Shown: in pieces, positions 1-64,000 of the stretch | Layout of the letters: each line of letters begins with the position of its first letter | Position numbering within the stretch: the stretch's first letter is position 1 | Made by a program: the position numbers and the translations under genes | Source of the DNA: a virus | Reading direction: 5' to 3' (one strand) | Virus record (IMG/VR): IMGVR_UViG_3300017917_003866 | Location: 1-64,000 of that record | DNA length: 64,000 nt | Notes under the pieces: generated by a model | What the model saw: only the letters and a program-made list of their open reading frames with translations | The model's database searches: none | What the model was told of the DNA's origin: nothing

Positions 1-302
1 AAAACTATAACCCTAAGGTGGTTGTTGTAGAATATAATTGTGATGCCGATCCAGAATCTAGTCTTACTATAAAATATGATCCATCTCATAGATTTTGTGA
101 AAATAATTACTACGGTGCTACTGCAGGTGCTTTTAATAAATTAGCAAAAGAGAAGGGATATAAATTAGTTGCTTCTACGGATGGATTAAATCTTTTTTAT
201 TGTAGAGAGGATCTAGCATCAGATTTTAAAGAGATGGATTTAAGTTTAGTTTATAGAGGTAAGGTATGGCCTTTTTCTAACAGGGAAATGATTGAATATT
301 AA
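1..302 (+). CDS. FkbM-like methyltransferase, C-terminal part (5' end outside window)
   Basis: The reading frame is open from base 3 to a TAA at 300-302, so the gene begins before the window. A GTG at 18 is not the real start, because the frame continues upstream as N-Y-N-P-K. The visible 100 or so residues contain the pattern V-V-V-E-Y-N, then Y-D-P, then N-Y-Y-G-A-T-A-G-A and K-E-K-G-Y-K-L-V. From memory this fits the C-terminal half of FkbM-type SAM methyltransferases common in phage glycan clusters. The SAM-binding part is not in view. It lies directly before sugar-nucleotide genes, which suits methylation of a glycan. The next gene overlaps its last 11 bases. Confidence 0.5.
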   Translation, partial: NYNPKVVVVEYNCDADPESSLTIKYDPSHRFCENNYYGATAGAFNKLAKEKGYKLVASTDGLNLFYCREDLASDFKEMDLSLVYRGKVWPFSNREMIEY

Positions 303-1983
303 GAATATTAATACTGGTAAGTTAAGGAAGGATGTTATTATAAATATTCCTTTAATAGGGGAAAAAAGTATAGAAAATAGACATCTTAATTTTTTATCAT
401 GCTTTAGAAAATTAGAATATAGAAAATTCATAAAGGAGATAAAAAAATATCCCACGGATAAACATTTCCTCGATATTAATATAAGAATAGCAATATATCT
501 TTGTTTTTTAGAAGACTATGAAAAAGCTAAGGATTTTTTTATAAAAATATTCTATATAGATAGCGGAATTCAAGTGACACAATCTCTACAAGTATTTTCA
601 CACAGAATATATGAAAGGGAGGGATTTTCAAAAGATCTAGAAAAAATCATAGGATTTACAATAAAAAGATCCGATGATTTAAGATTGGATAAATGGAGGA
701 TAAGTGGTAAATTCTTTTTAGGACTGTATTCTAAAGACGATTCAAAAATATTCAAAAATTTTATAGATTGCTTAAATATCAACAGGATAGAGGTTGATAT
801 GGATTGTTATTACGATAAAATATGCTATATAGTATCATGGCTAAGATATAAATATCCAAAACAATCGGATACTTATTTGAAAAAATTGTATGATAGATTG
901 GACGGAATGGGATATTCTTATAGCCAAATACTCTATCCTCTGATTAAATTTCATAAGCCTAATCATTTAGGGAAGCATGTAAGCGGGTATAATTCAGGAA
1001 GCTTATGGGAATATGTAAACGAAAATAGAAAAAATATGAAGTACAAAAGAATATGTATTTTAGGATCAACCGGATTGGTTGGATCTAGCGTATATAAAAA
1101 ATACATCGATAAGTATCCTGCAGCTATTATTCTTTCACCAAAAAGGTATAATTTAGATCTTGAAAATAGAGAGCAGGTAATTGGTTATTTTCTTAAGAAT
1201 AAGCCAGACCTTGTTTTTATGTGTGCAGCAAAGGTTGGAGGAATAAAGGCAAATAATGATTATAAAGCTGATTTTATAACGTCTAATTTAAAAATTCAAA
1301 CTAATGTCATAGAAGCTTGCCATTTATCAGATGTTAATAAATTAGTTTTTTTAGGATCTTCCTGCATATATCCCAAGAATTCACAGATTCCTATAAAAGA
1401 GGAATATCTAATGACAGGACATCTGGAGGAAACTAATGATGCCTATGCAATTGCTAAAATTGCGGGGATTAAAATGTGTCAGTCTTACAATCAACAATAC
1501 GGAAGGGATTTCATATCTGTAATGCCTTGTAACCTTTACGGACCTGGTGATAACTTTGATCTTAATAACAGTCATGTACTTCCTGCTTTAATTAGAAAGT
1601 TTCATGAAGCTAAAGAGGAGAATTTACCTGAGGTAGAAATATGGGGAACAGGAAAACCTATGAGAGAATTTTTATATGCTGAAGATTTGGCTGATGCCCT
1701 CATATACCTTTCAGAAAACTACTCTTCTCCTGAAATAATAAATGTGGGTACAGGTGATGATATATCGATACTAGATCTTGCTGAAATAATATCAAAAGAA
1801 GTTGGCTATAAAGGGAATATAAGATTTAATTCTGGATACCCTGATGGGACATATAGAAAAGTCATGGATGTTTCTAAGATTTTTGAAACTGGATGGAGAC
1901 CTTTAACTACAATAGAGGAGGGAATTAAAAAAACCTATGAATACTATAAAAAAGTAAAATGCCAAATAAAACCGCTATTATAA
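292..1983 (+). CDS. fcl: GDP-L-fucose synthase with extra N-terminal helical domain
   Basis: Residues 249-563 form a full-length GDP-L-fucose synthase, an epimerase/reductase converting GDP-4-keto-6-deoxymannose to GDP-L-fucose. The NADPH-binding loop G-S-T-G-L-V-G is at 258-264 and the catalytic Tyr-x3-Lys at Y385/K389, with the family segment N-L-Y-G-P-G-D-N-F further on. Residues 1-248 are extra: lysine-rich, predicted helical, perhaps TPR-like, and not recognised. Met249 would start a normal-length enzyme, so internal initiation is possible. The proposed start is a TTG at 292 inside the preceding gene, which is uncertain. The next gene (gmd) supplies its substrate and overlaps by 25 bases, so the two are probably co-translated. 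Confidence 0.88.
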
Positions 1984-2972
1984 CAGGAGTAAATGGACAG
2001 GATGGAAGTTATCTTGCTGAACTTTTATTAGAAAAAGGATATGAAGTACATGGTACTATAAGAAGATCCTCGTCTTTTAATACATGGAGAATAGACCATA
2101 TTAGATCTCATGAAAATTTTCATTGGCATTACGTTGACGTAACAGATCCAGTATCTATTAGTAATCTTATATCTAAGATTCAGCCACACGAATTTTATAA
2201 TTTAGCAGCGCAGAGCCATGTTAAGATTTCTTTTGAAATTCCTTATTATACAGGACAAGTAGATGCTATAGGAACTCTTAATGTATTAGAAGCAATAAGA
2301 ACACATTCACCCGCTACTAAGCTTTATCAAGCATCAACATCTGAACTCTACGGAAAGGTTCAAGAAATACCTCAAACAGAAATCACTCCATTTTATCCGA
2401 GAAGTCCCTATGGAGTTGCTAAGCTTTATGGATTTTGGATAATAAAAAACTACAGAGAAGCATACAATATTTTTGCATGTAATGGAATTCTTTTTAATCA
2501 TACATCTCCAAGAAGAGGGGAGAACTTTATGGAGAAAAAGATTGTGGATTCGCTTGTAGCTATTCATAAAGGAAGCAAAGAAACTCTTAATCTTGGAAAT
2601 CTAGATGCTAAAAGAGATATAGGACATGCTAAAGAATATGTTGAGGGTATGTGGAGGATGCTTCAACAAGAGACACCAGAGGATTTTGTTCTTTCTACTG
2701 GTATTTGTTTTTCTGTAAGAGATATAGTTGAGACCGTTTATCAAATTTTAGGTAATAGTATAAAATGGGTTGGTGAAGGACTAGATGAGAAAGGTATAGA
2801 CGTAGAAACTGGAAGATTAGTTGTTACTATAGATCCTAAATATTTTAGGCCATCTGAAGTTGATCTACTAATTGGTAATGCTAAAAAAGCTAAGGAGATT
2901 TTAGGATGGGAAAGTAAATCTACTATTAGAGAAATATTGGAGGAGATGGTTTATGATCAAATGAAAAAATAA
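1959..2972 (+). CDS. gmd: GDP-mannose 4,6-dehydratase
   Basis: This short-chain dehydrogenase-fold enzyme converts GDP-D-mannose to GDP-4-keto-6-deoxy-D-mannose, the step before fucose synthase. The nucleotide-binding motif G10-x2-G13-x2-G16 (G-V-N-G-Q-D-G) is followed by the family sequence R-R-S-S-S-F. The catalytic elements are T127/E129 (S-T-S-E-L-Y-G) and Y151-x3-K155 (Y-G-V-A-K). At 337 residues it is slightly shorter than typical bacterial Gmd but looks complete. Its ATG lies inside fcl and its TAA shares a base with the next ATG (TAATG), so translation is coupled on both sides. With fcl it gives a two-enzyme route from host GDP-mannose to GDP-L-fucose. Confidence 0.95.
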
Positions 2973-3550
2973 TGAACTATAAATCATTAATAGAGAAAGA
3001 AATAGAGGGAATCAGAAATATACCAACTGATAGGATAGATGAAGTTGTTAATCAGATACACTGGAATCTAACCACAGGGAGAATAATAACTTCTGGCATG
3101 GGAAAAGCTGGGCAAATAGCTAACACTTTTGCAACTACACTTTCTTCTACAGGAACACCCGCTTTTTTTCTTCATCCTTCGGAAGCTCAACATGGTGATT
3201 TAGGAGTTGTACAAAACGGGGATATTATTATAGTTTTTTCTAATTCAGGAGAAACTAGAGAAGTTATAGAATTAATAGAGTTGGTACACGGGTTAAACTA
3301 TCATAATTTAATTTTTGCTATTGTAGGAAAAAGTAACTCACATATAGAAGCAAGATGTGCTGATTATATAGAATTCGGGCCTGTTGAAGAAATATGTCCC
3401 TTAGGTTTAACCCCTACCACATCTACTACATGTATGTCCGTTATATCTGATTTGATAGTGGTAGGTCTTATGAAGAGAAACGGATTTACTAAAGAAAAAT
3501 ATTCAAAATTACATCATGGAGGATACCTTGGTAAGAAATCAAAAAACTAG
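2972..3550 (+). CDS. SIS-domain sugar-phosphate isomerase, D-arabinose-5-phosphate isomerase type
   Basis: A single SIS domain of 192 residues. The loop S-G-M-G-K-A-G is at 41-47 (K45), H-G-D at 74-76, S-N-S-G-E-T at 90-95, and the C-terminal L-H-H-G-G-Y-L-G matches the H-P-G-G-x-L-G motif of KdsD/KpsF/GutQ enzymes. These isomerise ribulose-5-phosphate to arabinose-5-phosphate, the first committed step to Kdo. Cellular KdsD is about 330 residues with two C-terminal CBS domains. Those are absent here, so this is a minimal form. The kdsA gene that uses its product follows at once, overlapping by 35 bases, which strongly supports the pathway assignment. Confidence 0.85.
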   Translation: MNYKSLIEKEIEGIRNIPTDRIDEVVNQIHWNLTTGRIITSGMGKAGQIANTFATTLSSTGTPAFFLHPSEAQHGDLGVVQNGDIIIVFSNSGETREVIELIELVHGLNYHNLIFAIVGKSNSHIEARCADYIEFGPVEEICPLGLTPTTSTTCMSVISDLIVVGLMKRNGFTKEKYSKLHHGGYLGKKSKN

Positions 3551-4319
3551 GATTCTTATAGCGGGTCCTTGTGTTATACAAAGTTGGGATACCTGTTATG
3601 AAATAGCTACTGAAGTTAGAAGATGTGGACTTCTATATAATTTTGATCCGATATTTAAAGCTAGCTTTGATAAAGCAAATAGAACGTCTGTAGACGGATT
3701 TAGAGGCATTGGTATAGATAAAGGATTGGATATACTAAGAAAGATAAGAGAAAGGCTAAATATGTCGGTAATAACTGATGTACACGAAGTTTCTCAGGTT
3801 GAAAAAGTATCTAAGGTCGTTGATTATTTACAGATCCCTGCTTTTCTTTGTAGACAGACAGATTTAATCGAAGCATGCGCTAAAACTGGATTACCTGTTC
3901 TAATTAAGAAAGGTCAATTCTTATCTCCTGAATCTTGTAAATTTATAGAGAATAAATTTTATAAGTTTGGTGGAAATAATTTAATGATAGGAGAAAGAGG
4001 AAATAGCTTTGGGTATAACGATTTAATAGTTGATGCTACATCTATCTCTAGATTAAAAAAAGGGTGTAACAATTCAAAGATTATAATGGACTGCACTCAT
4101 AGTTTACAAAGACCGAATATGTCATCTGGCAAAACTGAAGGCAGAGGCGATATGATAGAGGATATGGTTAAATTTGCATCCGTTATGAATGCTGATGGAT
4201 TATTTATAGAAACCCATCCGTATCCCGAACTTTCTCCTTCTGATTCTGAAAACATGTTGGAGCTTAGAAAATTTGAATATGTTATAAAAAAATCAAGAGC
4301 TATCTATGATGCAATCTAA
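3516..4319 (+). CDS. kdsA: 3-deoxy-D-manno-octulosonate 8-phosphate synthase
   Basis: KdsA condenses arabinose-5-phosphate with phosphoenolpyruvate to Kdo-8-phosphate. Family signatures are I-A-G-P-C-V at 15-20, K-A-S-F-D-K-A-N-R-T-S, L-I-K-K-G-Q-F, G-E-R-G-N-S-F-G-Y and D-C-T-H-S-L-Q-R-P. Length (267) is close to cellular KdsA. Cys19 in G-P-C-V is the residue that marks the metal-dependent class; the E. coli metal-independent enzyme has Asn there. The chosen ATG is inside the isomerase gene, and a TTG a few codons later would remove the overlap. KdsC phosphatase and KdsB cytidylyltransferase are not in the window, so the host or upstream phage genes must supply them. Confidence 0.93.
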   Translation: MEDTLVRNQKTRILIAGPCVIQSWDTCYEIATEVRRCGLLYNFDPIFKASFDKANRTSVDGFRGIGIDKGLDILRKIRERLNMSVITDVHEVSQVEKVSKVVDYLQIPAFLCRQTDLIEACAKTGLPVLIKKGQFLSPESCKFIENKFYKFGGNNLMIGERGNSFGYNDLIVDATSISRLKKGCNNSKIIMDCTHSLQRPNMSSGKTEGRGDMIEDMVKFASVMNADGLFIETHPYPELSPSDSENMLELRKFEYVIKKSRAIYDAI

Positions 4320-5016
4320 ATTACTCGATGTTGTTATAATAAGTTATGCTAAAGATGATTATTGCAGAACCTTAACAATTAATTGTATACTTTCTTTGAT
4401 GTCTTCAGAAGATAATGCTAATGATATTTTTAATATCATAGTTGTTGAATCCGAACCGGGAATAACTTGGAATCATTTATCAGAAAATGTAAAAACTTTT
4501 CCCGCTCCTCTACCTTATGGATATCACAAATTTCTAAATTTTGGAAGAAAGATGGGAAATTCTCCTTGGGTTGCTTTGTGTAACAATGATTTGATATTTA
4601 GAAAAAATTGGTTTTCTAGCATTATAGAGGCTTCTGAACAACTCCCTGATTTTATGTCATTTTCTCCGATGTGCCCAATGACTCAGACACTTTACGGAAT
4701 AAACGAAAATATGGGAGTACTTGAGGGATACGAAATAAGAAAGCAAATATCAGGATGGTGTATAGTTCATAAAAGGGATATCTATGATATAATAGGAGAT
4801 CTAGATGAAAGATTTCATCATTGGTTTTGTGATAATGATTATGCTATGGAGTTAATTTCGAAAAAAGTAAGACATGCTTTAGTTACAAAATCTATAGTAG
4901 AGCACCACGATAATAACATAGGAAAAACAACAGAGAGGGTTGTTAAGGATTATGATCTAATGTACAAAATGACTAGCGGATCCTATCCTATATTTAAAGA
5001 AAAATGGAACTTATAA
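4306..5016 (+). CDS. Glycosyltransferase, GT2/GT-A-like
   Basis: The protein opens with a V-V-I-I-S-Y-A strand typical of GT-A nucleotide-sugar-binding folds. It has I-V-V-E-S-E-P near residue 45, then W-V-A-L-C-N-N-D-L, where N-N-D takes the position of the DxD metal and nucleotide site. Later come S-G-W-C-I-V-H-K-R and F-H-H-W-F-C-D-N-D-Y, resembling the acceptor-side E/D-D motif. Length is 236 residues, with no membrane segment. Donor and acceptor cannot be read from sequence; GDP-fucose or CMP-Kdo are natural guesses from the neighbours. It overlaps kdsA by 14 bases, and two tandem ATGs at 4306 and 4309 are equally possible starts. Confidence 0.72.
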   Translation: MMQSKLLDVVIISYAKDDYCRTLTINCILSLMSSEDNANDIFNIIVVESEPGITWNHLSENVKTFPAPLPYGYHKFLNFGRKMGNSPWVALCNNDLIFRKNWFSSIIEASEQLPDFMSFSPMCPMTQTLYGINENMGVLEGYEIRKQISGWCIVHKRDIYDIIGDLDERFHHWFCDNDYAMELISKKVRHALVTKSIVEHHDNNIGKTTERVVKDYDLMYKMTSGSYPIFKEKWNL

Positions 5017-5025
5017 AAAATAGTT

Positions 5026-5646
5026 ATGACTAGATACGATATAATAAACAAGATTATAGAAAGTAAAGGATATAAGAATTACCTTGAAATAGGAGTAAGG
5101 GACGGAGAATGTTTTAAAGAGATATGCTGCGAAAATAAGACTGGAGTAGATCCTGCTCCTGTTTCTTCTGACACAACTCATATAATGACTTCTGATTCTT
5201 TTTTTGAATCCCTGGAGGATGATTATAAATTCGATATCATTTTTATTGATGGACTTCATTTAGATCGCCAGGTTGACAGAGACATAGAGAATTCTTTAAA
5301 ACATCTTTCAGAGAATGGTACTATTGTTTTACACGACTGTAATCCACCAACTAGATATCACGCTGAAGAAACTCCCGTTTTTACTGCACCAGCAAACGGT
5401 AATTGGAACGGTACTGTATATCTTTCTTTAATAAAATTAAGATTATATAGAAATGATTTAAAATTAACTACTGTTGATACTGATTGGGGAGTGGGAATTT
5501 TAACTAGAAATCTAAGTGAAACTATAAATGTTTTTCCTAGTGACGCAACTAATTGGGAATTTTTCAATGAAAACAGGCAAGAAATTTTAGATTTAGTAAC
5601 TCCTTCGGAATTTTTAGAATTATACGCGTCTTATAAAACTGTATAA
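5026..5646 (+). CDS. Class I SAM-dependent methyltransferase (Methyltransf_24-like)
   Basis: A 206-residue protein with motif I as Y-L-E-I-G-V-R-D-G near residue 20, an acidic strand end at G-V-D-P (ribose binding), I-I-F-I-D-G-L-H (motif IV region) and I-V-L-H-D-C-N-P-P. This order matches small class I methyltransferases frequent in phage and bacterial glycan clusters. Substrate is unknown; methylation of a sugar made by the preceding genes is an inference. The start follows the glycosyltransferase by 9 bases with no Shine-Dalgarno sequence. It is the last gene of the glycan module. Confidence 0.72.
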   Translation: MTRYDIINKIIESKGYKNYLEIGVRDGECFKEICCENKTGVDPAPVSSDTTHIMTSDSFFESLEDDYKFDIIFIDGLHLDRQVDRDIENSLKHLSENGTIVLHDCNPPTRYHAEETPVFTAPANGNWNGTVYLSLIKLRLYRNDLKLTTVDTDWGVGILTRNLSETINVFPSDATNWEFFNENRQEILDLVTPSEFLELYASYKTV

Positions 5647-7544: not shown

Positions 7545-9443
7545 ATGGCAGATCCTAAAGTATTTAGAGAGGGTACATTAAATAATTTACAGAACCCTGG
7601 TGAATCGATATCAGGTGTACAGTATTATAACCAGAATGGTATATATGCTTTTCCTAGCGATAAAGTATTTGCTACTTACGAGCTTTCTGAGCTAAGATAT
7701 CTTCCAAAAAGTTTATTTTACGATGCAGCAACATCTGATGGCGTTTATAGGGGTCTTTTTGCTTATTATGTTTTAGGAACGGGTGCAAATAAAGCTAAGT
7801 ATCACAAATCTGAATTAAAAGAAAGTCTAGAATTAATAACATCTAAGGCATCTAGAAACCCAACAGCAAAACAAATAATAGATGTTGTTACCAAAGGGGC
7901 TGGAGGAATCCCTAACTATTTAAATCCTAATAGCCAATTTAGAGGGCAAATATACAACGTAAAGGATTTTATTTTTTGTAAGTACTATGGAGTTATTCCT
8001 AATAATAGAATGCTTACTCTTAGAAGATTTGCACACCCTACTTTAGATTCTTTAAGAGTTATTGCTAATGATAAAGTAGGAGACTTTACTGGATCTGCTG
8101 GTAAGGACGGAAAGATAAAGGTAAAATATGAAGTTCCTAAAGATGGTATACCGGATCTAGGAAAACTACAGGATCTTACTGGAACATATAACACATCATT
8201 ACCTGTTGCTCAGTTGGTTACATTTTTTGGAGGAGATACAGGAAATAATCTTAGCACTATATTAGGAATAGATACGGGGTTAAATTTTTCCTTACAGACA
8301 CAAGAGCCTACGAAGAATGAACAAACAGGAGATCCAGGCCTTATGAATACACCATACGGGGATCTAATAAAAGCTGCTATAACTAGTGGTGGAAATGATA
8401 TATCAACCGAGGATATTACTGCTTTTGATAATCTAATAGGAACACTAATAGCTCCTGAAAAAAATATAAAAAGGTTAGAAAGGGCTCTTTTAGACGAAGC
8501 TGTAACTGCCGATGGACCGCTATCAAAGAAAATATTTGTTAACCTAAATACAGTAAATCAAGTAGCAGTTAGACAACAAGGATTTAGTGGAGGAACAAAT
8601 AGTTTTACCTTAAATTTTCATTATACTCTCAGCTCAGCAGGTGAGGTGAATTCTAAATTATTATTTCTAGATCTTATGACAAATGTATTGTCGGTAGGTT
8701 CCGACTATGGACAATTTTTAACGCCTGAAATAAGAGTACAGCAAACTTCTGTTGGTATGGGATTTCCCGGAGGTCCTGCGGGATATGCCAAATCTATAAC
8801 TGATCCGATTAATTATATAAGAGATATTGTTTCTAGAATGCTATCAGCAGGATCTGTAAATAAATTAAAAGAACAGGAGGACCTAGTTAAATCAAAAACT
8901 AGTGAAATATATCAGGATGTACAAAAGTTTATTAATGATCCTGACAAGGGATTAGATCCTAATTCAAGTTTTTATAAGTCTATATCAGTCATGATATCTG
9001 AGGCTTTTTTGAAAAAAATATACTACAGTCCAATTATGCTTAGTGGATATCCTACTGGAGAATGGCATTTAACGGTAGGGAATCCTTTGAATCCTATAGC
9101 CATGATGGGTAATCTTGTTTGTAATAATGTTAAGATAAACTTTAATGACGAGTTGGGTCCTGATGATTTTCCGACAGAAATGACCGTACAGATTCAACTT
9201 ATGCCAGGAAGACAAAGACACAGGGGGGATTGGGAATCTATGCTTAACAGAGGTAATGGAAGATTATATTTAGGACAACTTATATCTAGCAAAGAATCTA
9301 CACAAGCATGGGTTAATACTAAGGGTAATTTTGTTAATGACACAGAAGGTAAGGATATTTATAATATAGTTAACGAAAATATAGATCCCCTTACTGGAAG
9401 AGAACCTTTAGGATTAACTGGAGCCACTGGTACTAATCAATAA
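7545..9443 (+). CDS. Virion structural protein, 632 aa, probably baseplate
   Basis: No certain family match. It is a long soluble protein with low cysteine content and no signal peptide, opening the structural region and followed 11 bases later by a gp53-like baseplate gene. Visible features are an N-terminal region rich in aromatic residues, a central mixed segment with D-T-G-N-N-L-S-T, and a C-terminal beta-rich part (S-G-Y-P-T-G-E-W-H-L-T-V-G-N-P, V-Q-I-Q-L-M-P-G-R-Q-R-H-R). That part resembles the end of a tail-tube or hub-associated domain. The last residues are G-L-T-G-A-T-G-T-N-Q. Baseplate location is inferred from neighbours. Confidence 0.55.
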   Translation: MADPKVFREGTLNNLQNPGESISGVQYYNQNGIYAFPSDKVFATYELSELRYLPKSLFYDAATSDGVYRGLFAYYVLGTGANKAKYHKSELKESLELITSKASRNPTAKQIIDVVTKGAGGIPNYLNPNSQFRGQIYNVKDFIFCKYYGVIPNNRMLTLRRFAHPTLDSLRVIANDKVGDFTGSAGKDGKIKVKYEVPKDGIPDLGKLQDLTGTYNTSLPVAQLVTFFGGDTGNNLSTILGIDTGLNFSLQTQEPTKNEQTGDPGLMNTPYGDLIKAAITSGGNDISTEDITAFDNLIGTLIAPEKNIKRLERALLDEAVTADGPLSKKIFVNLNTVNQVAVRQQGFSGGTNSFTLNFHYTLSSAGEVNSKLLFLDLMTNVLSVGSDYGQFLTPEIRVQQTSVGMGFPGGPAGYAKSITDPINYIRDIVSRMLSAGSVNKLKEQEDLVKSKTSEIYQDVQKFINDPDKGLDPNSSFYKSISVMISEAFLKKIYYSPIMLSGYPTGEWHLTVGNPLNPIAMMGNLVCNNVKINFNDELGPDDFPTEMTVQIQLMPGRQRHRGDWESMLNRGNGRLYLGQLISSKESTQAWVNTKGNFVNDTEGKDIYNIVNENIDPLTGREPLGLTGATGTNQ

Positions 9444-45814: not shown

Positions 45815-48529
45815 ATGCCACAGATTAATATATTAAACATTCTACAGGGAGACAACCAATCCACTATAGTTGACAAATTAAATTATAATTTTGATCAGAT
45901 ACTTAGTGCTGGTGGTGGACCTCAAGGAGCACAGGGATTAATAGGACCAACTGGACCTATCGGACCTCAAGGGCCACAAGGAGTTCAGGGAGCTCAAGGA
46001 CCTTCTGGAACTAAATGGTTTGTTCAAGATGCACAACCAGCATCTGGAGGAATTACTGGATCAAATCCATGGACTTATCCAACCCTCGGAGACTATTGGT
46101 TAGATCCAGATTCAGCAAATCAGGATGTTTATGTATTTACTGCTACTGGATGGGTTAATACTGGATACGGATTAAATGCCGGTGATTTATTTCAAAAAGT
46201 AACCCCTATAAATATAAACGGGGGTGCTACAGCCCAAGCTATTTTAATTGCTGGTGCTACCGCTGATGATAAGAGCTTAGTACTATCAGATTCTTCTGTT
46301 TCTGGATATACACCAGGAGGTACTGCTATAGATAATCTAAATTTTGAGAATTCTAAACTAAAAATAGCAACTAAGGATGATCGAACTAAATTAATAAGTT
46401 TTGGTAGATCAACCTACGATGTAACCCCAGGGGGATCTGGTTCTTCTAGTAGTTCTTATAATCCATACTTTGCTTGGGATTTTTCTTTTAATCCCTCAGG
46501 AGCTTCTGGAGCAGGGGCAGGATTTTATGGAATTAATTTTACTAACCCTAAGGGATCTATAGGTATAGTATCTAATGGTGCAACTGCAGAATCTGGAATA
46601 AATCTTTCAAGTACAAGCGAGATATCTGCAGCATCTACTAATGATAATATATTACTTAAGACCTCTTCGATTAATAAAGGTACTTTTGTAGATGCTAGTA
46701 GCAACGGAGGATTTTTTGAATTTTCTAATCAACCTGCAGGAACCCCTTCAAATTTATCTAATGCACCGATCTTTGCAAATTCTACTGGTTTAGGAGTAGG
46801 TTTGGGTACTGGTCAGTTTAAACAATCTGGAGATGATTCAAGAAGATTGGCAGTTAATGGAAACTTAAGTCTCGGAAAAACAGCTACAACACACACAGGA
46901 AATCTTTTTGTCGGCGATCCATCTGCACCTAATAATAATAAAGGTGTATTATTTGTAGAGGGCCATTCGATGTTTGGATATAATAATCCAACTGGAGATA
47001 ATTCGGGTGGTATACAAACTACTGGACCTGCGGAAAGAAGTGGTAGATATCCACAGCTTTTTGTTACTTCACCTAACTTTGGACCTGGTATACAAATAAA
47101 AACAGGGGGATCTAATTATTCTCCGAGAACTGTTATAGGAGATGGTATATTTGATACTAGTGCTCCTACTAATATAACCTCAGCGGGTACTGGTCCAGAT
47201 ATATCTCAAGAATTTTTTGCTGGAACTGGATACAATTTTTCAGCTAACAAGGCATTGATAAGTTATCATCATAAGATAACTAATGTTTCTAATACTGGAG
47301 TAACAGGACCGGTTTTCTCTATTTCTACTTTTACTAATTCAGGTGTTTATAATCCTACTAGTACTGCTAGAAGAACATTGATACAAACCACCAATTCTAA
47401 TAAGCTTTTAGAAATAATGGCTAATGGTACGGGAGGGACAAACATAATAAATATAGGATTTTCGAATCAGCCTTTATTTAGTTTGTATGGTACTTCTGGA
47501 TCAGCTACAGGAAGTGTTACTATCGGAGCTTCAGCATCGAATTTTCCAGGATTGGCAGGAAGCTTAACATCATTAGCTAATTTCCAATCTGGTAAAGCAA
47601 ACCATAGTTTAGTTGTGACGGGGGTTCAAACCATAGGAACGGTTAGCCCTTTATCTCTATTTAATGTTAATGGATCTGGCTCTGGTGGACTTGTTAGTTC
47701 TGCCAGTCATTTAAAAATATATAGGCAATTATATACAACGACATCAACTAAGGGATCTATTATAAGTGCTGCGGGACCTGGTGTAAATAATTATCCTAAC
47801 GGATTAGAGATAACTTCTCATATACCTGCTTCGGCATCGACGGGTGCAGGATCTCCTAATCAATCGGTAGCGATAGCAGTAGGAGGTAGCAGTCAGATAT
47901 ACAACACCTCGACCGACAGCGATATACCTCTTCCTGCTACAGGATTTTTTGTTAGTAACACTGGACAAAATATAGCAGTTGGTCAGTATATTGATTACGC
48001 TGCTGCTATAGGAGTATCTGGAGCGGGATCGGATGCAGCTATAAGTGCAAAGGGTGCTATTAATGGTATAGGTAATCTTTCTATAAGCGGAACAGGTACT
48101 TTTGGTGGAAATGTTAACGCATCAGGTGGAAACATAACAAACTCCTTAAATGTTGGGGATAGTCTTTTCCAAGGAGGATCTCTAGCATTAAATGCAGGTA
48201 CTATTATAAATGGTATGATAGTGGGAAGAATAATAATTCCAGTAAATGGATCATCTAACCCTACTATAAAAGCAGGATCTGGATTTAGCGCTGTTACGAC
48301 CGCTTCAGGAGCTTCTTTAGCAGCTAGAATTGATTTATCAGCTCCTTTCCCTGGAATAACTCCAGGATCCAATCCCGATGGAGTGGTTGTTTTATGTCAG
48401 GCGATATCTGGAGCCTCCACATCATATTTTTATTGCTCCTCATGGACAGAGGATTCATTTACACTTAGAGGGATTGGATTTAGCTCAGGTAGTGTACAAG
48501 TTCATTTTACGGCTTATGCTGTTTCTTAA
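45815..48529 (+). CDS. Tail fibre with collagen-like Gly-X-Y stretch, 904 aa
   Basis: The N-terminus (I-N-I-L-N-I-L-Q-G-D-N-Q, V-D-K-L-N-Y-N-F-D-Q-I) is a likely attachment segment. Residues about 35-62 are nine or ten Gly-X-Y triplets (G-P-T-G-P-I-G-P-Q-G-P-Q), a collagen-like trimerising stem. Then W-F-V-Q-D-A-Q-P and Y-W-L-D-P-D form a domain often seen in phage fibres after such stems. The long remainder is Gly/Ser/Thr/Asn-rich repeats typical of beta-structured trimeric fibres. No C-terminal chaperone domain was recognised. Receptor-binding role is inferred. Confidence 0.75.
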   Translation: MPQINILNILQGDNQSTIVDKLNYNFDQILSAGGGPQGAQGLIGPTGPIGPQGPQGVQGAQGPSGTKWFVQDAQPASGGITGSNPWTYPTLGDYWLDPDSANQDVYVFTATGWVNTGYGLNAGDLFQKVTPININGGATAQAILIAGATADDKSLVLSDSSVSGYTPGGTAIDNLNFENSKLKIATKDDRTKLISFGRSTYDVTPGGSGSSSSSYNPYFAWDFSFNPSGASGAGAGFYGINFTNPKGSIGIVSNGATAESGINLSSTSEISAASTNDNILLKTSSINKGTFVDASSNGGFFEFSNQPAGTPSNLSNAPIFANSTGLGVGLGTGQFKQSGDDSRRLAVNGNLSLGKTATTHTGNLFVGDPSAPNNNKGVLFVEGHSMFGYNNPTGDNSGGIQTTGPAERSGRYPQLFVTSPNFGPGIQIKTGGSNYSPRTVIGDGIFDTSAPTNITSAGTGPDISQEFFAGTGYNFSANKALISYHHKITNVSNTGVTGPVFSISTFTNSGVYNPTSTARRTLIQTTNSNKLLEIMANGTGGTNIINIGFSNQPLFSLYGTSGSATGSVTIGASASNFPGLAGSLTSLANFQSGKANHSLVVTGVQTIGTVSPLSLFNVNGSGSGGLVSSASHLKIYRQLYTTTSTKGSIISAAGPGVNNYPNGLEITSHIPASASTGAGSPNQSVAIAVGGSSQIYNTSTDSDIPLPATGFFVSNTGQNIAVGQYIDYAAAIGVSGAGSDAAISAKGAINGIGNLSISGTGTFGGNVNASGGNITNSLNVGDSLFQGGSLALNAGTIINGMIVGRIIIPVNGSSNPTIKAGSGFSAVTTASGASLAARIDLSAPFPGITPGSNPDGVVVLCQAISGASTSYFYCSSWTEDSFTLRGIGFSSGSVQVHFTAYAVS

Positions 48530-57384: not shown

Positions 57385-57990
57385 ATGCAAAAAATTAAAA
57401 ACTTTAAGGATTTTTGTCAAATTAATGAGTCTAACGAGGAGCTTTTTTTTAGAAGGCATCTTGGTAATAACGCTTCAAGCTATGATGATCGTGCTAAAAA
57501 TCATTATGATTTAGGTGATAATCCTTCAGTGTTACAAAAAACTAAAAACTTCTTCCAAAAAATGGAAGATAGAATCAATAGAGCTGCTGAAATAGGTAAA
57601 CAACAAGTTAGACAAAATAGAGCAAGCAGAACTCACGGAGGTCCTGATACAGGATTCGAAATTCTTTTCGGATCCTTATCTGTGGTTCCTAATGTGTTAA
57701 AAAGAGTATTTGCCCCTACTAAATATGAGTTTACTAAGAAAGCACCTAGTGAAGATAAGGTAGATCTAGAATTTATGAGGCATACAAATGAAGATTTTGC
57801 TCAAAACGAACTTCCTAATATCAAAACTGAGGATCAGTTAGCTGATCATATAGGTGATTTATATAATAGAGGTGATGTTGTAATGGGCCAAGTACCAGTA
57901 TTAGATGATATAGCTAGAAATAGGGTAAATCTTTATTACCAACATCAGGCAAATCCATCCCAACCTATATTCCAAACAAATAATGTATAA
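57385..57990 (+). CDS. Unknown protein, 201 aa, with F-x-D-F N-terminal signature
   Basis: ATG at 57385 is preferred to the TTG just before it. The protein begins M-Q-K-I-K-N-F-K-D-F and has I-N-E at 13-15, the signature shared with two other genes in this window. After it the body is polar and helical (F-F-Q-K-M-E-D-R-I-N-R-A, Q-Q-V-R-Q-N-R-A-S-R). No enzymatic motif was seen. If the signature is a capsid-targeting peptide, this would be an internal head protein. Length and basic middle are compatible with that. Confidence 0.6.
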   Translation: MQKIKNFKDFCQINESNEELFFRRHLGNNASSYDDRAKNHYDLGDNPSVLQKTKNFFQKMEDRINRAAEIGKQQVRQNRASRTHGGPDTGFEILFGSLSVVPNVLKRVFAPTKYEFTKKAPSEDKVDLEFMRHTNEDFAQNELPNIKTEDQLADHIGDLYNRGDVVMGQVPVLDDIARNRVNLYYQHQANPSQPIFQTNNV

Positions 57991-57993
57991 AAA

Positions 57994-58830
57994 ATGAAAA
58001 AATTCTCTTTAGCAGTAGAAAAAAAGAAAGAAGAACTAAAAGAAAGTCAGATAGTTAATGAAAGAAACATGTATCTTGAGTTCTCAAAGAAATATCATAA
58101 AAAACATGGTGTTTCTGGTCCTTTTGATAAAAAATTTAATGGGGACGAAAAAGAACAAGAAAAATACATGGATGGTCTATCAAAAGCTTGGACTGAGTAC
58201 AAAAAAGAGAAAGGTATAAAACCTAAATCTAGCGGATCCAAGTTTGATTTTGCAAAGAAGAAGGTTAACGAATCTAAAGCACTTGAAATGGCTAAAAGCA
58301 TGATAGGTGACGGAGGAGATCCTAACTATCACTTTGTAACAATGTGCGACGATTTCTATTTTGATAAAACCGGAGAGATGGTAAGATATAGCAAAGATAT
58401 GCTTTCGTCTCCTCTTAAAGTAAAAACAACTCCCGACCTAGGAGCTTATACTTTTGGTCCTTTTGCAAATTTAGAAGAATCAAAAATGTTTGCTGCAAGT
58501 ATAGAATTAGACGAGATCAACGGTCCTAGAATGGTAACAATAGAGGATAGAAAAACTGGTGAGGTTTATACTAGATATTTGACTTGTAAAATGCAACCAG
58601 TTTGGAATGAAATTGAAGAGGAAGAGGATATCGAAGACGAGGAGGAAGAATACGAAGATCCTAATTCTGAATATACTTACGGAGAAGAACACGAGGAGGA
58701 TCACGACGAGACTGAGGATGAGGAAGATGAGGACGAAGAAGATGGTGATGAATATACTGCTACTATACCTCAAGGAGACGATGATGAAGTCGAAGACGAA
58801 ATTGAAGACGAATACGACGAAGAAGAATAA
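57994..58830 (+). CDS. Protein with long Asp/Glu-rich C-terminal tail, 278 aa
   Basis: The first third is Lys/Glu-rich and helical (K-K-F-S-L-A-V-E-K-K-K-E, with V-N-E at about 21-23). The middle (about 100-205) is a small globular domain with Y-H-F-V-T-M-C-D-D-F-Y-F. The last 75 residues are almost all Asp and Glu with scattered Tyr and Thr. The tail resembles acidic DNA-mimic or chaperone tails, but its partner is unknown. It lies three bases after the preceding gene and three before the next. Confidence 0.6.
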   Translation: MKKFSLAVEKKKEELKESQIVNERNMYLEFSKKYHKKHGVSGPFDKKFNGDEKEQEKYMDGLSKAWTEYKKEKGIKPKSSGSKFDFAKKKVNESKALEMAKSMIGDGGDPNYHFVTMCDDFYFDKTGEMVRYSKDMLSSPLKVKTTPDLGAYTFGPFANLEESKMFAASIELDEINGPRMVTIEDRKTGEVYTRYLTCKMQPVWNEIEEEEDIEDEEEEYEDPNSEYTYGEEHEEDHDETEDEEDEDEEDGDEYTATIPQGDDDEVEDEIEDEYDEEE

Positions 58831-58832
58831 AA

Positions 58833-59276
58833 ATGTTTAATCCTATACAGAGTACAGCACTTTATCCAGTTTTACAGCATTATACAGGATGTAAGATATC
58901 TTCAATATCTTTAGAGGGAGATGATTTTATATTCAAAACACTTTTAGGAGAAAATGGTATACTCAAGGAGGATATTACGGGAAACTGGAGTATTAAAATA
59001 GGACAAGAGCTTGTTTATACGATAGAAAAAGATATTTTCAATGTATTGATCAATCCGGACAAAAAAAGCTCTTTAGAAGACTACATAGATATACTAAATG
59101 ATCTATTTAATAATAAGGATATAAGTTATAGATCTAGACTTTTAGTAGTAAATATCATGAAATTTTTAGAGGAATATATAATAAGTTCAGATTTCGTCCC
59201 TAAGAAAAGCTTAAGGATAGGACCTCTTTTAATTTATAATTTAAAAGGTAGAAAAATTATTAATTGTTTAAACTGA
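58833..59276 (+). CDS. Hypothetical protein, 147 aa
   Basis: Not recognised. It begins M-F-N-P-I-Q-S-T-A-L-Y-P-V-L-Q-H-Y. The N-terminal half is beta-rich (S-S-I-S-L-E-G-D-D-F-I-F-K-T) and the C-terminal half helical (S-L-E-D-Y-I-D-I-L-N-D-L-F). It ends basic (K-G-R-K-I-I). Its stop overlaps the ATG of the next gene by one base, so coupled translation is likely. Confidence 0.6.
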   Translation: MFNPIQSTALYPVLQHYTGCKISSISLEGDDFIFKTLLGENGILKEDITGNWSIKIGQELVYTIEKDIFNVLINPDKKSSLEDYIDILNDLFNNKDISYRSRLLVVNIMKFLEEYIISSDFVPKKSLRIGPLLIYNLKGRKIINCLN

Positions 59277-61294
59277 TGCCTGGAATAAAATATTTATCGG
59301 ACATATACGAGAAAAAAGGAAAGTCCTTTATTGAGAATCTTTTCAATAAAAATTTAACAGTAACTGAAAATTTGGATGGTCCATCTTTTTCTTTCGAGCG
59401 AGATTTTACTGGAGACAATATATCTTTTTATAAAAAAGATCAAGATAATCCTATAACTAAGGTTGATAGGATTTTAATGAGATATTACGAAAAACCTATA
59501 AGTTATATAGAATCTATATCTCCTGAAATTATGAATCAGCTTCCTAAGGGATGGAGATTCGGAATGATTTATTTTCCGAATACTAAGCCTGTTAGAATAG
59601 AGTATGATAGAATACCAAAAAACCATTTAATACTAACACATGTAATGGTTAGGGATGAGTTTGGTGAAATTATAGATAATATCCAAGACAAAAGTGAATT
59701 GGACGAATGGGCTGATAAATTAGGCGTTGAAAGATCTCCTATTATTTTTCAAGGGAAGTTAAATAGAGATCAGAAGATATCCATAATGGATTTTCTTTCT
59801 ACCCCTCTTATGGATTTAAAAAATAAATTTAAAACCGAGAGTTTTACCAAATATCTAATATCTATTTTAAATAAAAATGTTGAATCCACCACATTAGGAA
59901 AGGATTTACAGGGTGAAATAGATTCTCTAGTTTTTAGATTTGAAGACGAGGAGGGAAAGGAAGAGACTGTTTTAGCAAAAATGGTAGATCCGGTTTTCCA
60001 TGAAATAAATAAAAGCAGAAAGGTTACTCAGACCTCTTATTTTCCTAGTGATGTTTATTCTTTATGTCTTATAGACGTAATGAATTTTATATTAGAGACT
60101 GGAGTAGAAAATTTTATAGCTTATGGAAATGACCCAGAGGAAAGATACATTGGTTTTGTTTTCGATGTATTTAAAAAATTCATATACGAGGAGGGAGAAA
60201 AATACGTAGGCGCAGATTTTCAAAAACCAGAGTATTTAAAAAGCGAGGGGTTTGAAATAAATAAGGATCTAATAAAAGATGATGAGGTATTAAAGTTTAT
60301 TGAGGATGACGAAGTTTATATAGACATACTTCAAATGATACTTAATTCATTTAGAAAGCTCAAAAGAAAACCTCATGGATTTTTCACAGAAGGCCTAATA
60401 CAGCAGTTTAATATGTTAGTAGAAGAAATAGCTAATTATATAAATGCTAAGAAAAAAGAGCTTGTAGAGGAATCTTTAGGGGTTCCAAGTTTTGTATGGT
60501 TTAAAAAAGTTGGAGCTAGATTTAATCCTATATTAAATGAAGAAGAGAGCGAAGATGAATATGAAGAATTGGAGGAGATAATAGATGGTACACTTCCTGA
60601 TAATATCGTTCCACTTAACGAGTCTGAAGATAATTCTCTTCTAAAAAAAGAGGATGATTCAGATAATAAAGACACCTCAGAATTTTTCTCGTTTAAAGAT
60701 TTTAAAAAAGTAGTATCTACTCATAAGGAAAAAAGAAAAATAAAGATATTGAACGAAAATAATAGTAAGGTAAATATAGTAATTGGGAAATTTCAACCAT
60801 TTAATAATGGGCACTTAAAAATGTGTACAAGATTAAAGAAAGAAAACAATTTACCAGTTTTTCTTTGTGTAGTACATCCAGGAAGCGAGCCTGGTTCTAA
60901 ATATCCCTTCTCGGAGGATTTGATAAAAAAATCAATAGGATCTTTAACATCAGAGAATAATAAATTATTTGCTGGGTACGAAATAATACCATCTAATCTT
61001 TTGGAGGATGCCATAAATTCAGTTGCAAAACATGCTAATCCTGCTTCAATTTGCATAGGGGAAAGAGATTTTGAAAATATGGTTTTACAGAGAGAATGGG
61101 TAAGAAACAAATACGATTTAGAAGGAGGAGATATAGAAATATACAAAACCCCCCAATGGTCTAATAATAATGATATTAGAAAATCTATAAAAGATGGTGA
61201 CTTTCAACAATTTAAAAGCAAAGTACCTAAATCTATAGCAGTTCTTTTCAATGAATTTACTAAACAAATAAACGGTTCTGAGGAGGATATATAA
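59276..61294 (+). CDS. Fusion: ligase-like nucleotidyltransferase plus NMN-adenylyltransferase-like domain, 672 aa
   Basis: ATG at 59276 overlaps the previous stop and is preferred to TTG at 59264. Residues about 25-240 follow the RNA-ligase-2-type order: T-E-N-L-D-G at 30-35 (motif I, normally E-K-x-D-G), R-F-G-M-I-Y-F-P, D-S-L-V-F-R-F and L-A-K-M-V-D-P (motifs IV/V). Asn32 takes the place of the catalytic Lys. The middle is helical and acidic. Residues 499-672 form an adenylyltransferase-like Rossmann domain with G-K-F-Q-P-F-N-N-G-H (504-513), where Asn510 replaces the first His of HxGH, and N-D-I-R near the end. Activity of either half is uncertain. Confidence 0.68.
   Translation: MPGIKYLSDIYEKKGKSFIENLFNKNLTVTENLDGPSFSFERDFTGDNISFYKKDQDNPITKVDRILMRYYEKPISYIESISPEIMNQLPKGWRFGMIYFPNTKPVRIEYDRIPKNHLILTHVMVRDEFGEIIDNIQDKSELDEWADKLGVERSPIIFQGKLNRDQKISIMDFLSTPLMDLKNKFKTESFTKYLISILNKNVESTTLGKDLQGEIDSLVFRFEDEEGKEETVLAKMVDPVFHEINKSRKVTQTSYFPSDVYSLCLIDVMNFILETGVENFIAYGNDPEERYIGFVFDVFKKFIYEEGEKYVGADFQKPEYLKSEGFEINKDLIKDDEVLKFIEDDEVYIDILQMILNSFRKLKRKPHGFFTEGLIQQFNMLVEEIANYINAKKKELVEESLGVPSFVWFKKVGARFNPILNEEESEDEYEELEEIIDGTLPDNIVPLNESEDNSLLKKEDDSDNKDTSEFFSFKDFKKVVSTHKEKRKIKILNENNSKVNIVIGKFQPFNNGHLKMCTRLKKENNLPVFLCVVHPGSEPGSKYPFSEDLIKKSIGSLTSENNKLFAGYEIIPSNLLEDAINSVAKHANPASICIGERDFENMVLQREWVRNKYDLEGGDIEIYKTPQWSNNNDIRKSIKDGDFQQFKSKVPKSIAVLFNEFTKQINGSEEDI
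61285..61293 (+). promoter_or_regulatory. GGATATATA box, candidate late promoter
   Basis: An exact box overlapping the last codons and stop of the fusion gene, 18 bases before the metallopeptidase ATG. Because it encodes D-I-stop it could be partly coincidental. Confidence 0.3.
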
Positions 61295-61311
61295 AATAAT
61301 TAAATGGAGAA

Positions 61312-62169
61312 ATGAAAAGAATATTATCCTTCAGCGATTTTGCTATTTTTGAATATAACGGTTTTGGATACTCAGCTAATAATTTAAATGAAGCTGTTTA
61401 TCTAGACGAGAGAAATAAAACTCCACATAATCCAGATGCTCTTAAAAAAATGAGGGCGTGTGTTTTTTTACTTAATGCTTCATATCCGTTTTTTGCTTCT
61501 ATGTTATCTAGATTATTAATCAGAGAAAATAGAAATCTTAGATTTAAAACAATGGCAACCGACGGGGTTAGTATACATTACGACCCGGATTTTGTTCTTG
61601 CCCATACAGACGAAGAAATAATATGGGTAATCGCACACGAAGTTTTACATAACACCCTAGTTCACTTTCTAAGATGTCCTAAGGATAAAACAAAAGCTGG
61701 TGTATGGAATGTCGCTGCAGATTATGCTCTGAATCAACTCTTAACCCCAATAGATCCAGCAACAGCGGATACTACTAAGCCCACACCTGCTGGAAAAGGA
61801 GGGATAGGAAAAATGGTAGAGGGATCACTTTATCCTGGATGTGGACACGTTCCTTATGATTATGAGTTTGTAAATAGGACTGCGGAATGGATATACAACA
61901 AACTCCTGGAAAATGGATATGTACCGGAACCTGGTGATGATCCTAAACCTACACCACCACCACCGCCACCACCAAAAGATCCCATAGTTGGAGATATTAT
62001 ATACGATCCAGGAAATCAATCTTATGGGATAGTTAAATCTATAGACGAAAATTCTGGAGATCTTGAATATGACCCGATACCTAAAGAAAAAGTAAAAGAA
62101 TATTTAAAAAGAAAATCTAAAGGTGAAAATATCTTAGGTGATGACATAGAAAAAGAACTAGACTTCTAA
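61312..62169 (+). CDS. Putative metallopeptidase, DUF2201 N-terminal type
   Basis: Zinc-site motif H109-E-V-L-H113 is followed by H118 and by W-N-V-A-A-D-Y-A-L-N-Q, the pattern of DUF2201-type metallopeptidase domains. These are usually fused to a VWA domain. Here the VWA part is the separate next gene. The N-terminus (M-K-R-I-L-S-F-S-D-F, then L-N-E at 25-27) carries the signature shared with other genes nearby. A Pro-rich linker (T-P-P-P-P-P-P-P-K) precedes a small C-terminal domain (I-I-Y-D-P-G-N-Q-S-Y-G). Protease activity and substrate are unproven. Confidence 0.75.
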   Translation: MKRILSFSDFAIFEYNGFGYSANNLNEAVYLDERNKTPHNPDALKKMRACVFLLNASYPFFASMLSRLLIRENRNLRFKTMATDGVSIHYDPDFVLAHTDEEIIWVIAHEVLHNTLVHFLRCPKDKTKAGVWNVAADYALNQLLTPIDPATADTTKPTPAGKGGIGKMVEGSLYPGCGHVPYDYEFVNRTAEWIYNKLLENGYVPEPGDDPKPTPPPPPPPKDPIVGDIIYDPGNQSYGIVKSIDENSGDLEYDPIPKEKVKEYLKRKSKGENILGDDIEKELDF

Positions 62170-62178
62170 TTTACCAAT

Positions 62179-63150
62179 ATGAAAGCTAAAATAACAGATA
62201 TAAGAATACAGGAATTACCGGAATCAGGTACAGGTACAGGTACAGGAACTCCATCTCCAGAAAATGTTGATCGATGGGGAGAAGACGTACAGGATAATGA
62301 TGTACCAGAAAGAAATCCTGATGGTACATTAGAGGATTCAGAATTTAAAAGAGTCGATAGCCCAGGACCATCAGCTCCAGAGGGGTATAACCCAGGAGAA
62401 ATACTCAGACCTGGTGAACTTGGAGATCTTGGAGGTGATTCTGGATTAAACGGAGAAAGCTTAGCTGAGGAATGGGAGGATATTTCTAGATTAGCTGAGA
62501 AAACAGCAGGTAATATACCAGGATCTCTTAAAAGAGCTTTGGCTAAGATTAAGAAGCCAGTAGTAGATTGGAAAGCTGAACTAGCTAAGTATATAGACGA
62601 GGCTATATCTAAATCTAAATACACATTACCTGCTAGAAGATTCCTTGGAGCAGGAAAAGCTCAGTATGGATATAAGAGATACAAGGAGGATTTCGAAAAT
62701 GTGGTGGTTGCTATAGATACATCAGGGTCTATTACTAGGGATATGATAGAACAATTCCTTGGCGAGGTTATGAAAATAACTGATGTTTATACTCCACAAA
62801 AAACTGTAATATTATATTGTGATACTCAGGTTTATGAACCGGATATATTAGAGCCAGGAGATTTACCAGATCTTAATAAAATAGCTGGTGGGGGTGGGAC
62901 TTATTTTTGGCCTCCTTTTAAATGGGTTCAAAAAAATATGATGGAAGAGGGTGAAAAACCTACAATATTTATATACTTTACTGACGGGGAAGCTACATTC
63001 CCTTCTGAGCAGGATTATGATATTGCGGATTATTCTGATAGATGTATCTGGGTATTTGTTACATTCAACGATCAGCCTTACCCTAATCCACAGCCTTTCG
63101 GAGAAAGAATAGACATTGTTCTTGCTAATAAGAACGCGAAAAGAATATAA
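62179..63150 (+). CDS. VWA-domain protein with intact MIDAS
   Basis: Residues 1-140 are polar and disordered, with a G-T-G-T repeat (about 17-24) and many Pro/Glu/Asp. Residues about 170-320 form a von Willebrand factor A domain. The metal site has D180-T-S-G-S184 (DxSxS), T241 in G-G-G-G-T-Y and D269 in F-T-D-G-E, so all MIDAS ligands are kept. Such proteins act as adaptors for MoxR-type AAA+ chaperones, which is the gene that follows. It begins nine bases after the metallopeptidase gene, of which it is the natural other half. Confidence 0.85.
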   Translation: MKAKITDIRIQELPESGTGTGTGTPSPENVDRWGEDVQDNDVPERNPDGTLEDSEFKRVDSPGPSAPEGYNPGEILRPGELGDLGGDSGLNGESLAEEWEDISRLAEKTAGNIPGSLKRALAKIKKPVVDWKAELAKYIDEAISKSKYTLPARRFLGAGKAQYGYKRYKEDFENVVVAIDTSGSITRDMIEQFLGEVMKITDVYTPQKTVILYCDTQVYEPDILEPGDLPDLNKIAGGGGTYFWPPFKWVQKNMMEEGEKPTIFIYFTDGEATFPSEQDYDIADYSDRCIWVFVTFNDQPYPNPQPFGERIDIVLANKNAKRI

Positions 63151-63155
63151 AAATA

Positions 63156-63166
63156 GATATATAAAA
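63156..63166 (+). promoter_or_regulatory. GATATATAAAA box, candidate late promoter
   Basis: An exact box in the 27-base gap between the VWA and AAA+ genes, 11-14 bases before the ATG. Confidence 0.4.
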
Positions 63167-63177
63167 TAAAAAAAATA

Positions 63178-64000
63178 ATGGGAAAGAGAATTTATAATTT
63201 TGACGAGTTTGTAAATGAATCCTATATGAATGAGGGATTTTTCTCTGATCTAGGTTCAAAAATATCTACTTGGGCAAAAAATTTATATAACGCTGTTAAA
63301 TCTGGTATTGTTAGATTAATATCTTCAGGTCCTAAATCAGGAACCCCGAGAGTTGCTCTATTTGATGATTCAAAAAGTGAATCTATATTAGATCAGGTTA
63401 ATAATTTTTATAAAGGAACTGAGTACTATAATATGAATAACCTGCAAATTCCAGAGACTATGCAGGAGAGTTTCCTATGGGAAGATGCAGTTCCTCTAGA
63501 GTATCCTATGAAGGATGATATTCCTAATTATAGCGAAGCCGAAATAAAAACGGATATCAAGAGAAGCATGAGAGAAATCTTTAGGATAGCTGATGAAATG
63601 GATGCTGCCGCACAATCTGGAGCTAGCGAAGATGAGATAGATGATATTTACAGAGGTATATTAGATGTTAAGCCTATATTTATATACGGAGCTCCTGGAA
63701 TTGGTAAAACACAAATTGTAGCTCAAGTATGCGATGAACTAGGAAAAGAACTATATGGTCACAAGCTTTCATTAGTTAACGTAGATGGTGAAAACGCAGA
63801 GCCTGTAGATTTTGCTGGTGTACCTAGTGTAGTAGACATCGAAACTCCATCTGAAGAAAACCCTATCGGTAGAGGAGTTACAAGATCTAATATTAATGCA
63901 GATATATTACCTTACGATAACGGAAGAAACGGAAAAGGAGGTATAATATTTATTGACGAGCTAAATAGGATGCCGGAAGAGGTTATCAAAATATTTATGA
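63178..64000 (+). CDS. MoxR-type AAA+ ATPase (3' end outside window)
   Basis: The open frame runs from ATG at 63178 off the window edge (274 codons seen). Walker A G-A-P-G-I-G-K-T is at 171-178 and Walker B I-I-F-I-D-E at 256-261, followed by L-N-R as in MoxR proteins. About 170 residues precede the ATPase core, starting M-G-K-R-I-Y-N-F-D-E-F with V-N-E at 12-14. That start matches the signature of the 57385 and 61312 genes. The segment about 20-45 (F-F-S-D-L-G-S-K-I-S-T-W-A) is amphipathic. MoxR proteins remodel partner proteins together with VWA adaptors, encoded immediately upstream. Confidence 0.82.
   Translation, partial: MGKRIYNFDEFVNESYMNEGFFSDLGSKISTWAKNLYNAVKSGIVRLISSGPKSGTPRVALFDDSKSESILDQVNNFYKGTEYYNMNNLQIPETMQESFLWEDAVPLEYPMKDDIPNYSEAEIKTDIKRSMREIFRIADEMDAAAQSGASEDEIDDIYRGILDVKPIFIYGAPGIGKTQIVAQVCDELGKELYGHKLSLVNVDGENAEPVDFAGVPSVVDIETPSEENPIGRGVTRSNINADILPYDNGRNGKGGIIFIDELNRMPEEVIKIFM

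Follow-up and report, generated by a model that had tools for sequence, protein, structure and literature searches.

A predicted T4-type capsid-targeting peptide on MoxR ATPase, metallopeptidase and other genes of a jumbo-type phage fragment

Why genes with different products should open with nearly the same peptide is the question raised by the 64,000-nucleotide stretch of DNA analysed here (the window), which comprises positions 1 to 64,000 of the IMG/VR virus record IMGVR_UViG_3300017917_003866. The full record has 72,519 bases and is itself a fragment; the window covers its first 64 kb. A sequence-only reading had noted a shared signature at the N-termini of the genes at 57385, 61312 and 63178 and within the fusion gene at 59276, and had proposed a targeting peptide like that of T4 internal head proteins, cut after [LI]xE. 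All four sequences were verified in the places listed below, and the analysis indicates that they very probably belong to a capsid-targeting system of the T4 type that is employed far more widely than in T4 itself.

57385..57429, + strand: predicted capsid-targeting peptide MQKIKNFKDFCQINE/S of the 57385-57990 gene; F-KD-F..INE/S identical in four orthologues
60683..60757, + strand: internal copy FFSFKDF...KIKILNEN, residues 470-494 of the 59276-61294 gene, between its N-terminal and cytidylyltransferase-like domains
61312..61392, + strand: predicted capsid-targeting peptide MKRILSFSDFAIFEYNGFGYSANNLNE/A (MKRILSFSDFAIFE...NNLNE/A) of the metallopeptidase gene; ends conserved in close orthologues
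63178..63219, + strand: predicted capsid-targeting peptide MGKRIYNFDEFVNE/S of the MoxR ATPase gene; F8, V12, N13 and E14 invariant

As a yardstick, T4 IPIII (MKTYQEFIAE/A) was used, in which targeting depends on residues 4 and 7 and processing on residues 8 and 10 (PMC9026906). From these determinants (Y4xxF7-I8xE10) the strict pattern [YF]xxF[ILVM]xE was derived beforehand and applied to the first 35 residues. The MoxR peptide of the window, GKRIYNFDEFVNE/S, reads F-DE-FV-N-E, with spacing equal to that of the T4 IPIII determinants. Its cut site follows directly on the docking residues, with V for L/I, and the 57385 and 61312 tags reach theirs via a linker, as is also allowed between docking part and cut site in T4 IPI (MKTFKEF...ITE/A). 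One form of the tag in the window is MGKRIYNFDEFVNES and another is MKRILSFSDF...LNEA. Among the 251 open reading frames (ORFs) of T4, the strict pattern matched IPII and IPIII only, and the relaxed pattern added IPI and two chance matches.

The fragment comes from a jumbo-type phage whose capsid is of the gp23 type. The window encodes a primase, a UvsW-type helicase and a gp32-type single-stranded DNA-binding protein (PF08804), along with long tail and structural genes. Relatives of the structural-region protein at 7545 were found only in Tenacibaculum phages pT24 and PTm1/5, Chryseobacterium MA9V, Flavobacterium MaF61, Sphingomonas PAU, Lak phages and uncultured huge phages. Close relatives in IMG/VR were identified via the metallopeptidase, which is 80-86% identical in them: G001 (84.5 kb), G002 (148 kb) and G003 (207 kb).

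On the window's own contig, the relaxed pattern matched 4 of 60 ORFs compared with a shuffled mean of 0.87, and 6 of 500 shuffles were equally high. Since this excess was modest, the T4-derived pattern was tested in relatives picked without reference to the motif, including the 462-kb genome LR756500 as well as G007 and G008, both found via the capsid protein. The whole-genome counts refer to these relatives, read in 20-kb pieces, with the loss of genes spanning piece boundaries. Strict matches exceeded the mean of 500 shuffles in G001 (8 vs 0.20), G002 (14 vs 0.45), G003 (15 vs 0.91) and LR756500 (20 vs 1.77), with binomial P values against internal stretches of 6e-11, 5e-17, 5e-12 and 8e-11, respectively; G007 gave 7 vs 0.97 and G008 7 vs 0.54 in the comparison with shuffles. 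The P values were left uncombined, as the genomes are only partly independent of one another. In the window's close lineage, 35 matches fell within the first 20 residues, compared with at most 7 in every later 20-residue bin.

A blind motif search over N-termini recovered the motif in G003 and G002, a Y-version in LR756500 and KT[LI]SKLYE in PAU. The lineage versions KH[IL]..[FY]E.FLN and [KE]Y[IL]KEYE.F[IL]N emerged with scores well above those of shuffled and internal controls; the N-termini of pT24, PTm1, MA9V-1 and MaF61 yielded nothing convincing in this search. With a weight matrix built from the window's own, G001 and G002 sites, 18 N-termini were picked out in LR756500 where 0.4 were expected. 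The two aromatics three residues apart (F1 and F4 of the motif) were conserved in 28 of 28 cases, compared with 85% elsewhere. By shuffles, internal stretches and blind search alike, the signature is strongly enriched at the N-termini of the relatives. A first loose pattern, admitting any hydrophobic residue at most positions, had given many chance matches, also in the PAU and pT24 controls, and was replaced by the strict T4-derived form.

The proposed cut site was evaluated on a non-redundant set of 34 strict tags. N precedes E (position P2) in 20 of them (background 9%, P 4e-13), and E is followed by S, A or G (position P1'), likewise in 20 (background 23%, P 6e-6). The capsid protein of the clade, encoded in the relatives and not in the fragment, is of the gp23 type (PF07068, 5e-38), and its propeptide ends in ...HSLNE/SAGAY. 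LNES stands at the predicted site in 79 of 79 capsid proteins, matching the cargo tag site. By comparison with T4 gp23, which is cut at FLTE/A, LNE/S is predicted to be the capsid propeptide cut site. For PAU, N-terminal sequencing of the mature capsid protein gave 520 of 585 residues, with ~65 lost (PMC5646251); this processing point adjoins LME64, off by one from our own count. In the adenylate kinase tag of G003, D replaces E; in a T4 tag, an E-to-D change blocked cutting and kept targeting (PMC9026906).

A gp21-type protease (PF03420) was detected above cut-off in G002 (2.9e-12), G006, LR756500, pT24, PTm1, MA9V-1, PAU and Lak-A2 and was also present in G007 and G008; most phages of the clade with enough sequence carry one. 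The MaF61 protease was not picked up by the family model and was recognised as a homologue by direct comparison. In T4, protease and scaffold are encoded by separate genes, whereas in the clade one fused gene carries a 14-residue tandem array: in G002, the protease (L031:405-2495) is joined to fifteen consecutive units with an exact 14-residue period, typically NISYSEYLAENLDK. All 59 of 59 protease genes adjoining the capsid gene in relatives hold 10-16 YxxYLAE copies, and the LR756500 protease shows two recognisable repeat copies only. The class pattern [YFW]xx[YF][ILVM]xE occurs 15 times in the G002 protease fusion and at most once in every other protein of that genome. Although similar to the tag (NILSYKEFINES), the unit has Y..Y in place of F..F, and for this reason the repeats score poorly with the cargo weight matrix; the likeness rests on the class pattern. 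We infer that the tandem repeat tail is the scaffold and the likely docking partner of the tag, and we give even chances to the cargo tag being an imitation of the scaffold repeat.

The enrichment, the T4 spacing, the LNE/S site shared with the capsid protein and the protease in relatives support a T4-like targeting peptide, as the sequence-only reading had it. According to the proposed mechanism, an amphipathic helix with FxxF would dock the new protein on the prohead scaffold core, probably as a mimic of one scaffold unit. After closure of the shell, the gp21-type protease would cut after [LIV]-x-E, mostly at N-E/S or N-E/A, so that the tag would be removed and the mature protein would stay inside the head. 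More tentatively, and with somewhat less than even confidence, we propose one repeat code for the whole head: YxxYLAE scaffold units would each dock and cut, and any protein with one such unit at its N-terminus would be incorporated into the core, freed by the prohead protease and retained in the head, the clade delivering dozens of proteins, including a MoxR-metallopeptidase machine, at infection.

PAU, which belongs to the same broad phage group, carries an MKT[IL]xxLYEAKLNEA-like peptide on 14 of 289 genes. Of the five PAU genes with the annotation 'internal capsid protein', four begin with this PAU version (MK[TSG]..xLYE; P 1.7e-5), as does the PAU scaffolding gene. Close to the N-terminus of the PAU capsid protein stands AKLNES, which matches the AKLNEA of the tag. 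PAU differs from the window's lineage in its consensus (LYE..LNE) and in its separate scaffolding gene.

The window genes that carry the predicted tag at their N-terminus, together with the gene lying between two of them, are the following.

57385..57990, + strand: cargo gene, 201 amino acids, function not assignable by family; G001-G003 orthologues ~90% identical
61312..62169, + strand: DUF2201_N metallopeptidase with HEVLH zinc motif, tagged (PF13203, 4e-17)
62179..63150, + strand: vWA-like (DUF2201) protein, no tag at the N-terminus, partner of metallopeptidase and MoxR (PF09967, 2.1e-18)
63178..64000, + strand: MoxR-type AAA+ ATPase, tagged, running on to contig position 64785 (535 amino acids; phrog_1297, 6.2e-13; PF00004, 1.6e-5; PF07728, 3.8e-5)

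The three tagged genes had been regarded as unrelated in function. This needs partial correction: the metallopeptidase and the MoxR ATPase are known partners in one MoxR-vWA-metallopeptidase system (PMC7824862). The 57385 protein has no known family (no match in Pfam or PHROG). Adjacent MoxR ATPase, vWA and metallopeptidase domains are present in the window, and the same three domains lie side by side in group 2.2 jumbo and N4-like phages; here, in contrast, metallopeptidase and vWA are encoded separately, and the metallopeptidase and the MoxR ATPase are tagged. The two adjacent genes at 61312-63150 correspond to a single longer ORF in Munch, PA5oct and G7C, and relative L004 has a tandem pair of vWA copies (8875 and 9862). 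Structural matches of the metallopeptidase, to minigluzincin and SprT-type metallopeptidases, were weak.

Conservation of the tags was followed in orthologues. In close orthologues of the 61312 protein, the F..F and LNEA parts are kept and the middle varies in sequence and length, with insertions and deletions. The invariant MoxR tag residues were seen in five sequences, the most distant being 45% identical overall. The 57385 orthologue of a second lineage, ~23% identical, retains an N-terminal M[RK]HLQS[YF]ELLES version. An N-terminal [FYW]xx[FY] peptide is present in 6 of 6 metallopeptidase copies examined within the clade, and the homologues in Munch, Vibrio 2.275.O, G7C, PA5oct, SCTP-2 and phage G begin at the domain, without the peptide. 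Compared across these proteins, the tag is an add-on, modular peptide. A second, paralogous MoxR-metallopeptidase pair in G003 is likewise tagged. Packaging of the tagged MoxR ATPase and metallopeptidase and their delivery into the host would be as probable, in our view, as some other fate.

Further copies lie downstream on the window's own contig, past the window, namely MRHIKLFEQFLLEE (L001:3062) and MINNILSYEEFINES, whose start falls within the ORF at L001:3516. Most of the remaining tagged proteins match no known family; the exceptions include an adenylate kinase, a P-loop kinase and one protein of OmpA-like type. Separately, a tag MKKQVLSFNEFI[NF]EAY is common to L037:8808 (G002) and L042:2866 (G003), whose following parts align poorly, as if either tag or body had been swapped.

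The internal copy lies in a fusion protein (59276-61294) whose N-terminal part matches no Pfam family but contains a ligase-like motif, ENLDG (EKLNG in G006). The C-terminal part, just downstream of the copy, is cytidylyltransferase-like (PF01467, 0.0033, below cut-off). The copy is retained in four close genomes, and FDQF and FKTF occur at the same linker in two distant lineages, where the cut site is not clearly conserved. The copy is a candidate processing site of the fused protein, which would then be a polyprotein.

Several observations weigh against capsid targeting. The 72.5-kb fragment has no gp21-type protease and no capsid gene, both being absent from the contig because it is a fragment; the protease expected by the sequence-only reading is found in the close relative G002 and most clade members. 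PAU, pT24, PTm1 and MaF61 showed no excess of the window's form of the motif in the shuffle test. One of the five PAU 'internal capsid proteins' is without the motif, and the support from this annotation, for which the depositors' basis is not stated, could be partly circular. The tagged adenylate kinase and P-loop kinase resemble cytoplasmic enzymes. Structure predictions (AlphaFold) of the 57385 and 61312 proteins were poor, with a predicted local distance difference test score (pLDDT) of ~51; the tag region in these models forms a short helix with pLDDT below 50, which agrees with a detachable tag and proves nothing. For the window's lineage, the case is built on sequence throughout.

Among the rival explanations, the strongest keeps the head and changes the purpose. 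The tagged MoxR ATPase and metallopeptidase could be assembly factors inside the prohead instead of being delivered to the host; the tag would recruit proteins for prohead assembly work, to be degraded or expelled later, and the pair would be an assembly chaperone and protease and not an injected effector. A virion-assembly role for MoxR-vWA-metallopeptidase in such phages has been proposed by Iyer et al. (PMC7824862), T4 core proteins are digested (PMC9026906), and related N-termini occur at high density in the head-gene region of G002. However, many tagged genes are remote from the head cluster, several occur in only some close genomes, as cargo would, and a single cut near the N-terminus spares a protein instead of destroying it. 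We consider this alternative a serious one, somewhat short of even odds.

The peptide would be another localisation signal, for a membrane, a replication compartment or degradation, if its N-E end were coincidental. An amphipathic N-terminal helix is a common type of signal, and a head role in the window's lineage is argued from sequence; yet the spacing is that of the mapped T4 determinants, the enriched P2 and P1' residues equal those of the capsid site, and a lineage-specific version stands on annotated PAU internal capsid proteins, which together make this explanation unlikely. Common descent of whole genes by recent duplication would account for some tagged genes, which are paralogous (two MoxR ATPases, two metallopeptidases), but the tagged families differ (AAA+, metallopeptidase, adenylate kinase, OmpA-like, unknowns) and homologues elsewhere lack the tag, so that duplication is very improbable as the general cause. 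Chance in AT-rich genes, with N-termini rich in lysine, phenylalanine, glutamate and asparagine, draws support from the small excess in the window alone (4 vs 0.87). In relatives, however, shuffles and internal stretches gave counts ~7- to 40-fold lower, and the blind search yielded no comparable motif in shuffled or internal sequence; chance or composition was rejected on these three grounds and its probability is practically negligible.

Capsid targeting as known from T4 IPI, IPII and IPIII shares with the present case a short N-terminal peptide, aromatics three apart, an [IL]xE site reached directly or after a linker, and the presence, in the phages that carry the tag (here, the relatives), of a protease of the gp21 family and a shell of the gp23 family. 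The clade differs in carrying the tag on roughly 15-35 genes per genome, compared with three or four in T4, in its consensus F..F[LI]NE/S, in the copy inside a fused protein, in the protease-fused scaffold of tag-like repeats, and in a cargo that includes AAA+ ATPases and metallopeptidases. The ejection proteins of SPN3US and phiKZ are similar in that many proteins reside in a giant phage head and some are cut by the prohead protease after x-x-E; they differ in their long propeptides (often >100 residues) without a short shared tag, in the capsid group and, for phiKZ, in the site [SAG]xE. No description of a short repeated tag in the clade was found in the literature, including a 2026 review, in a search that did not extend to subscription papers.

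Internal head proteins of jumbo phages usually come from proteomics of cultured phages, and the clade is mostly known from metagenomes. A readable tag would allow cargo to be predicted from sequence, with ~15-35 candidates per genome. Most of these have no known function, which makes them candidates for a part in early host takeover or counter-defence. How the tag is recognised is suggested by the tag-like repeats of the scaffold, which also offer a natural source of packaging tags.

Some minor observations were made on the same contig. Tag-like pieces without a clear cut site lie near the C-termini at L001:4652-4984 and L001:4993-5460 (LSDYREFINRKK; LMDFKTFMNNSKANQ); T4 Alt also undergoes C-terminal processing (PMC9026906). 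A sugar-pathway block at window positions 292-5646 encodes an epimerase, a GDP-mannose dehydratase, a SIS-domain isomerase, a methyltransferase and a DAHP-synthase-I family enzyme (possibly KDO-8-phosphate synthase), together with a weak glycosyltransferase match. Collagen-like Gly-x-y repeats were seen in phage proteins at window positions 45815-48529 and at L001:10191-10520.

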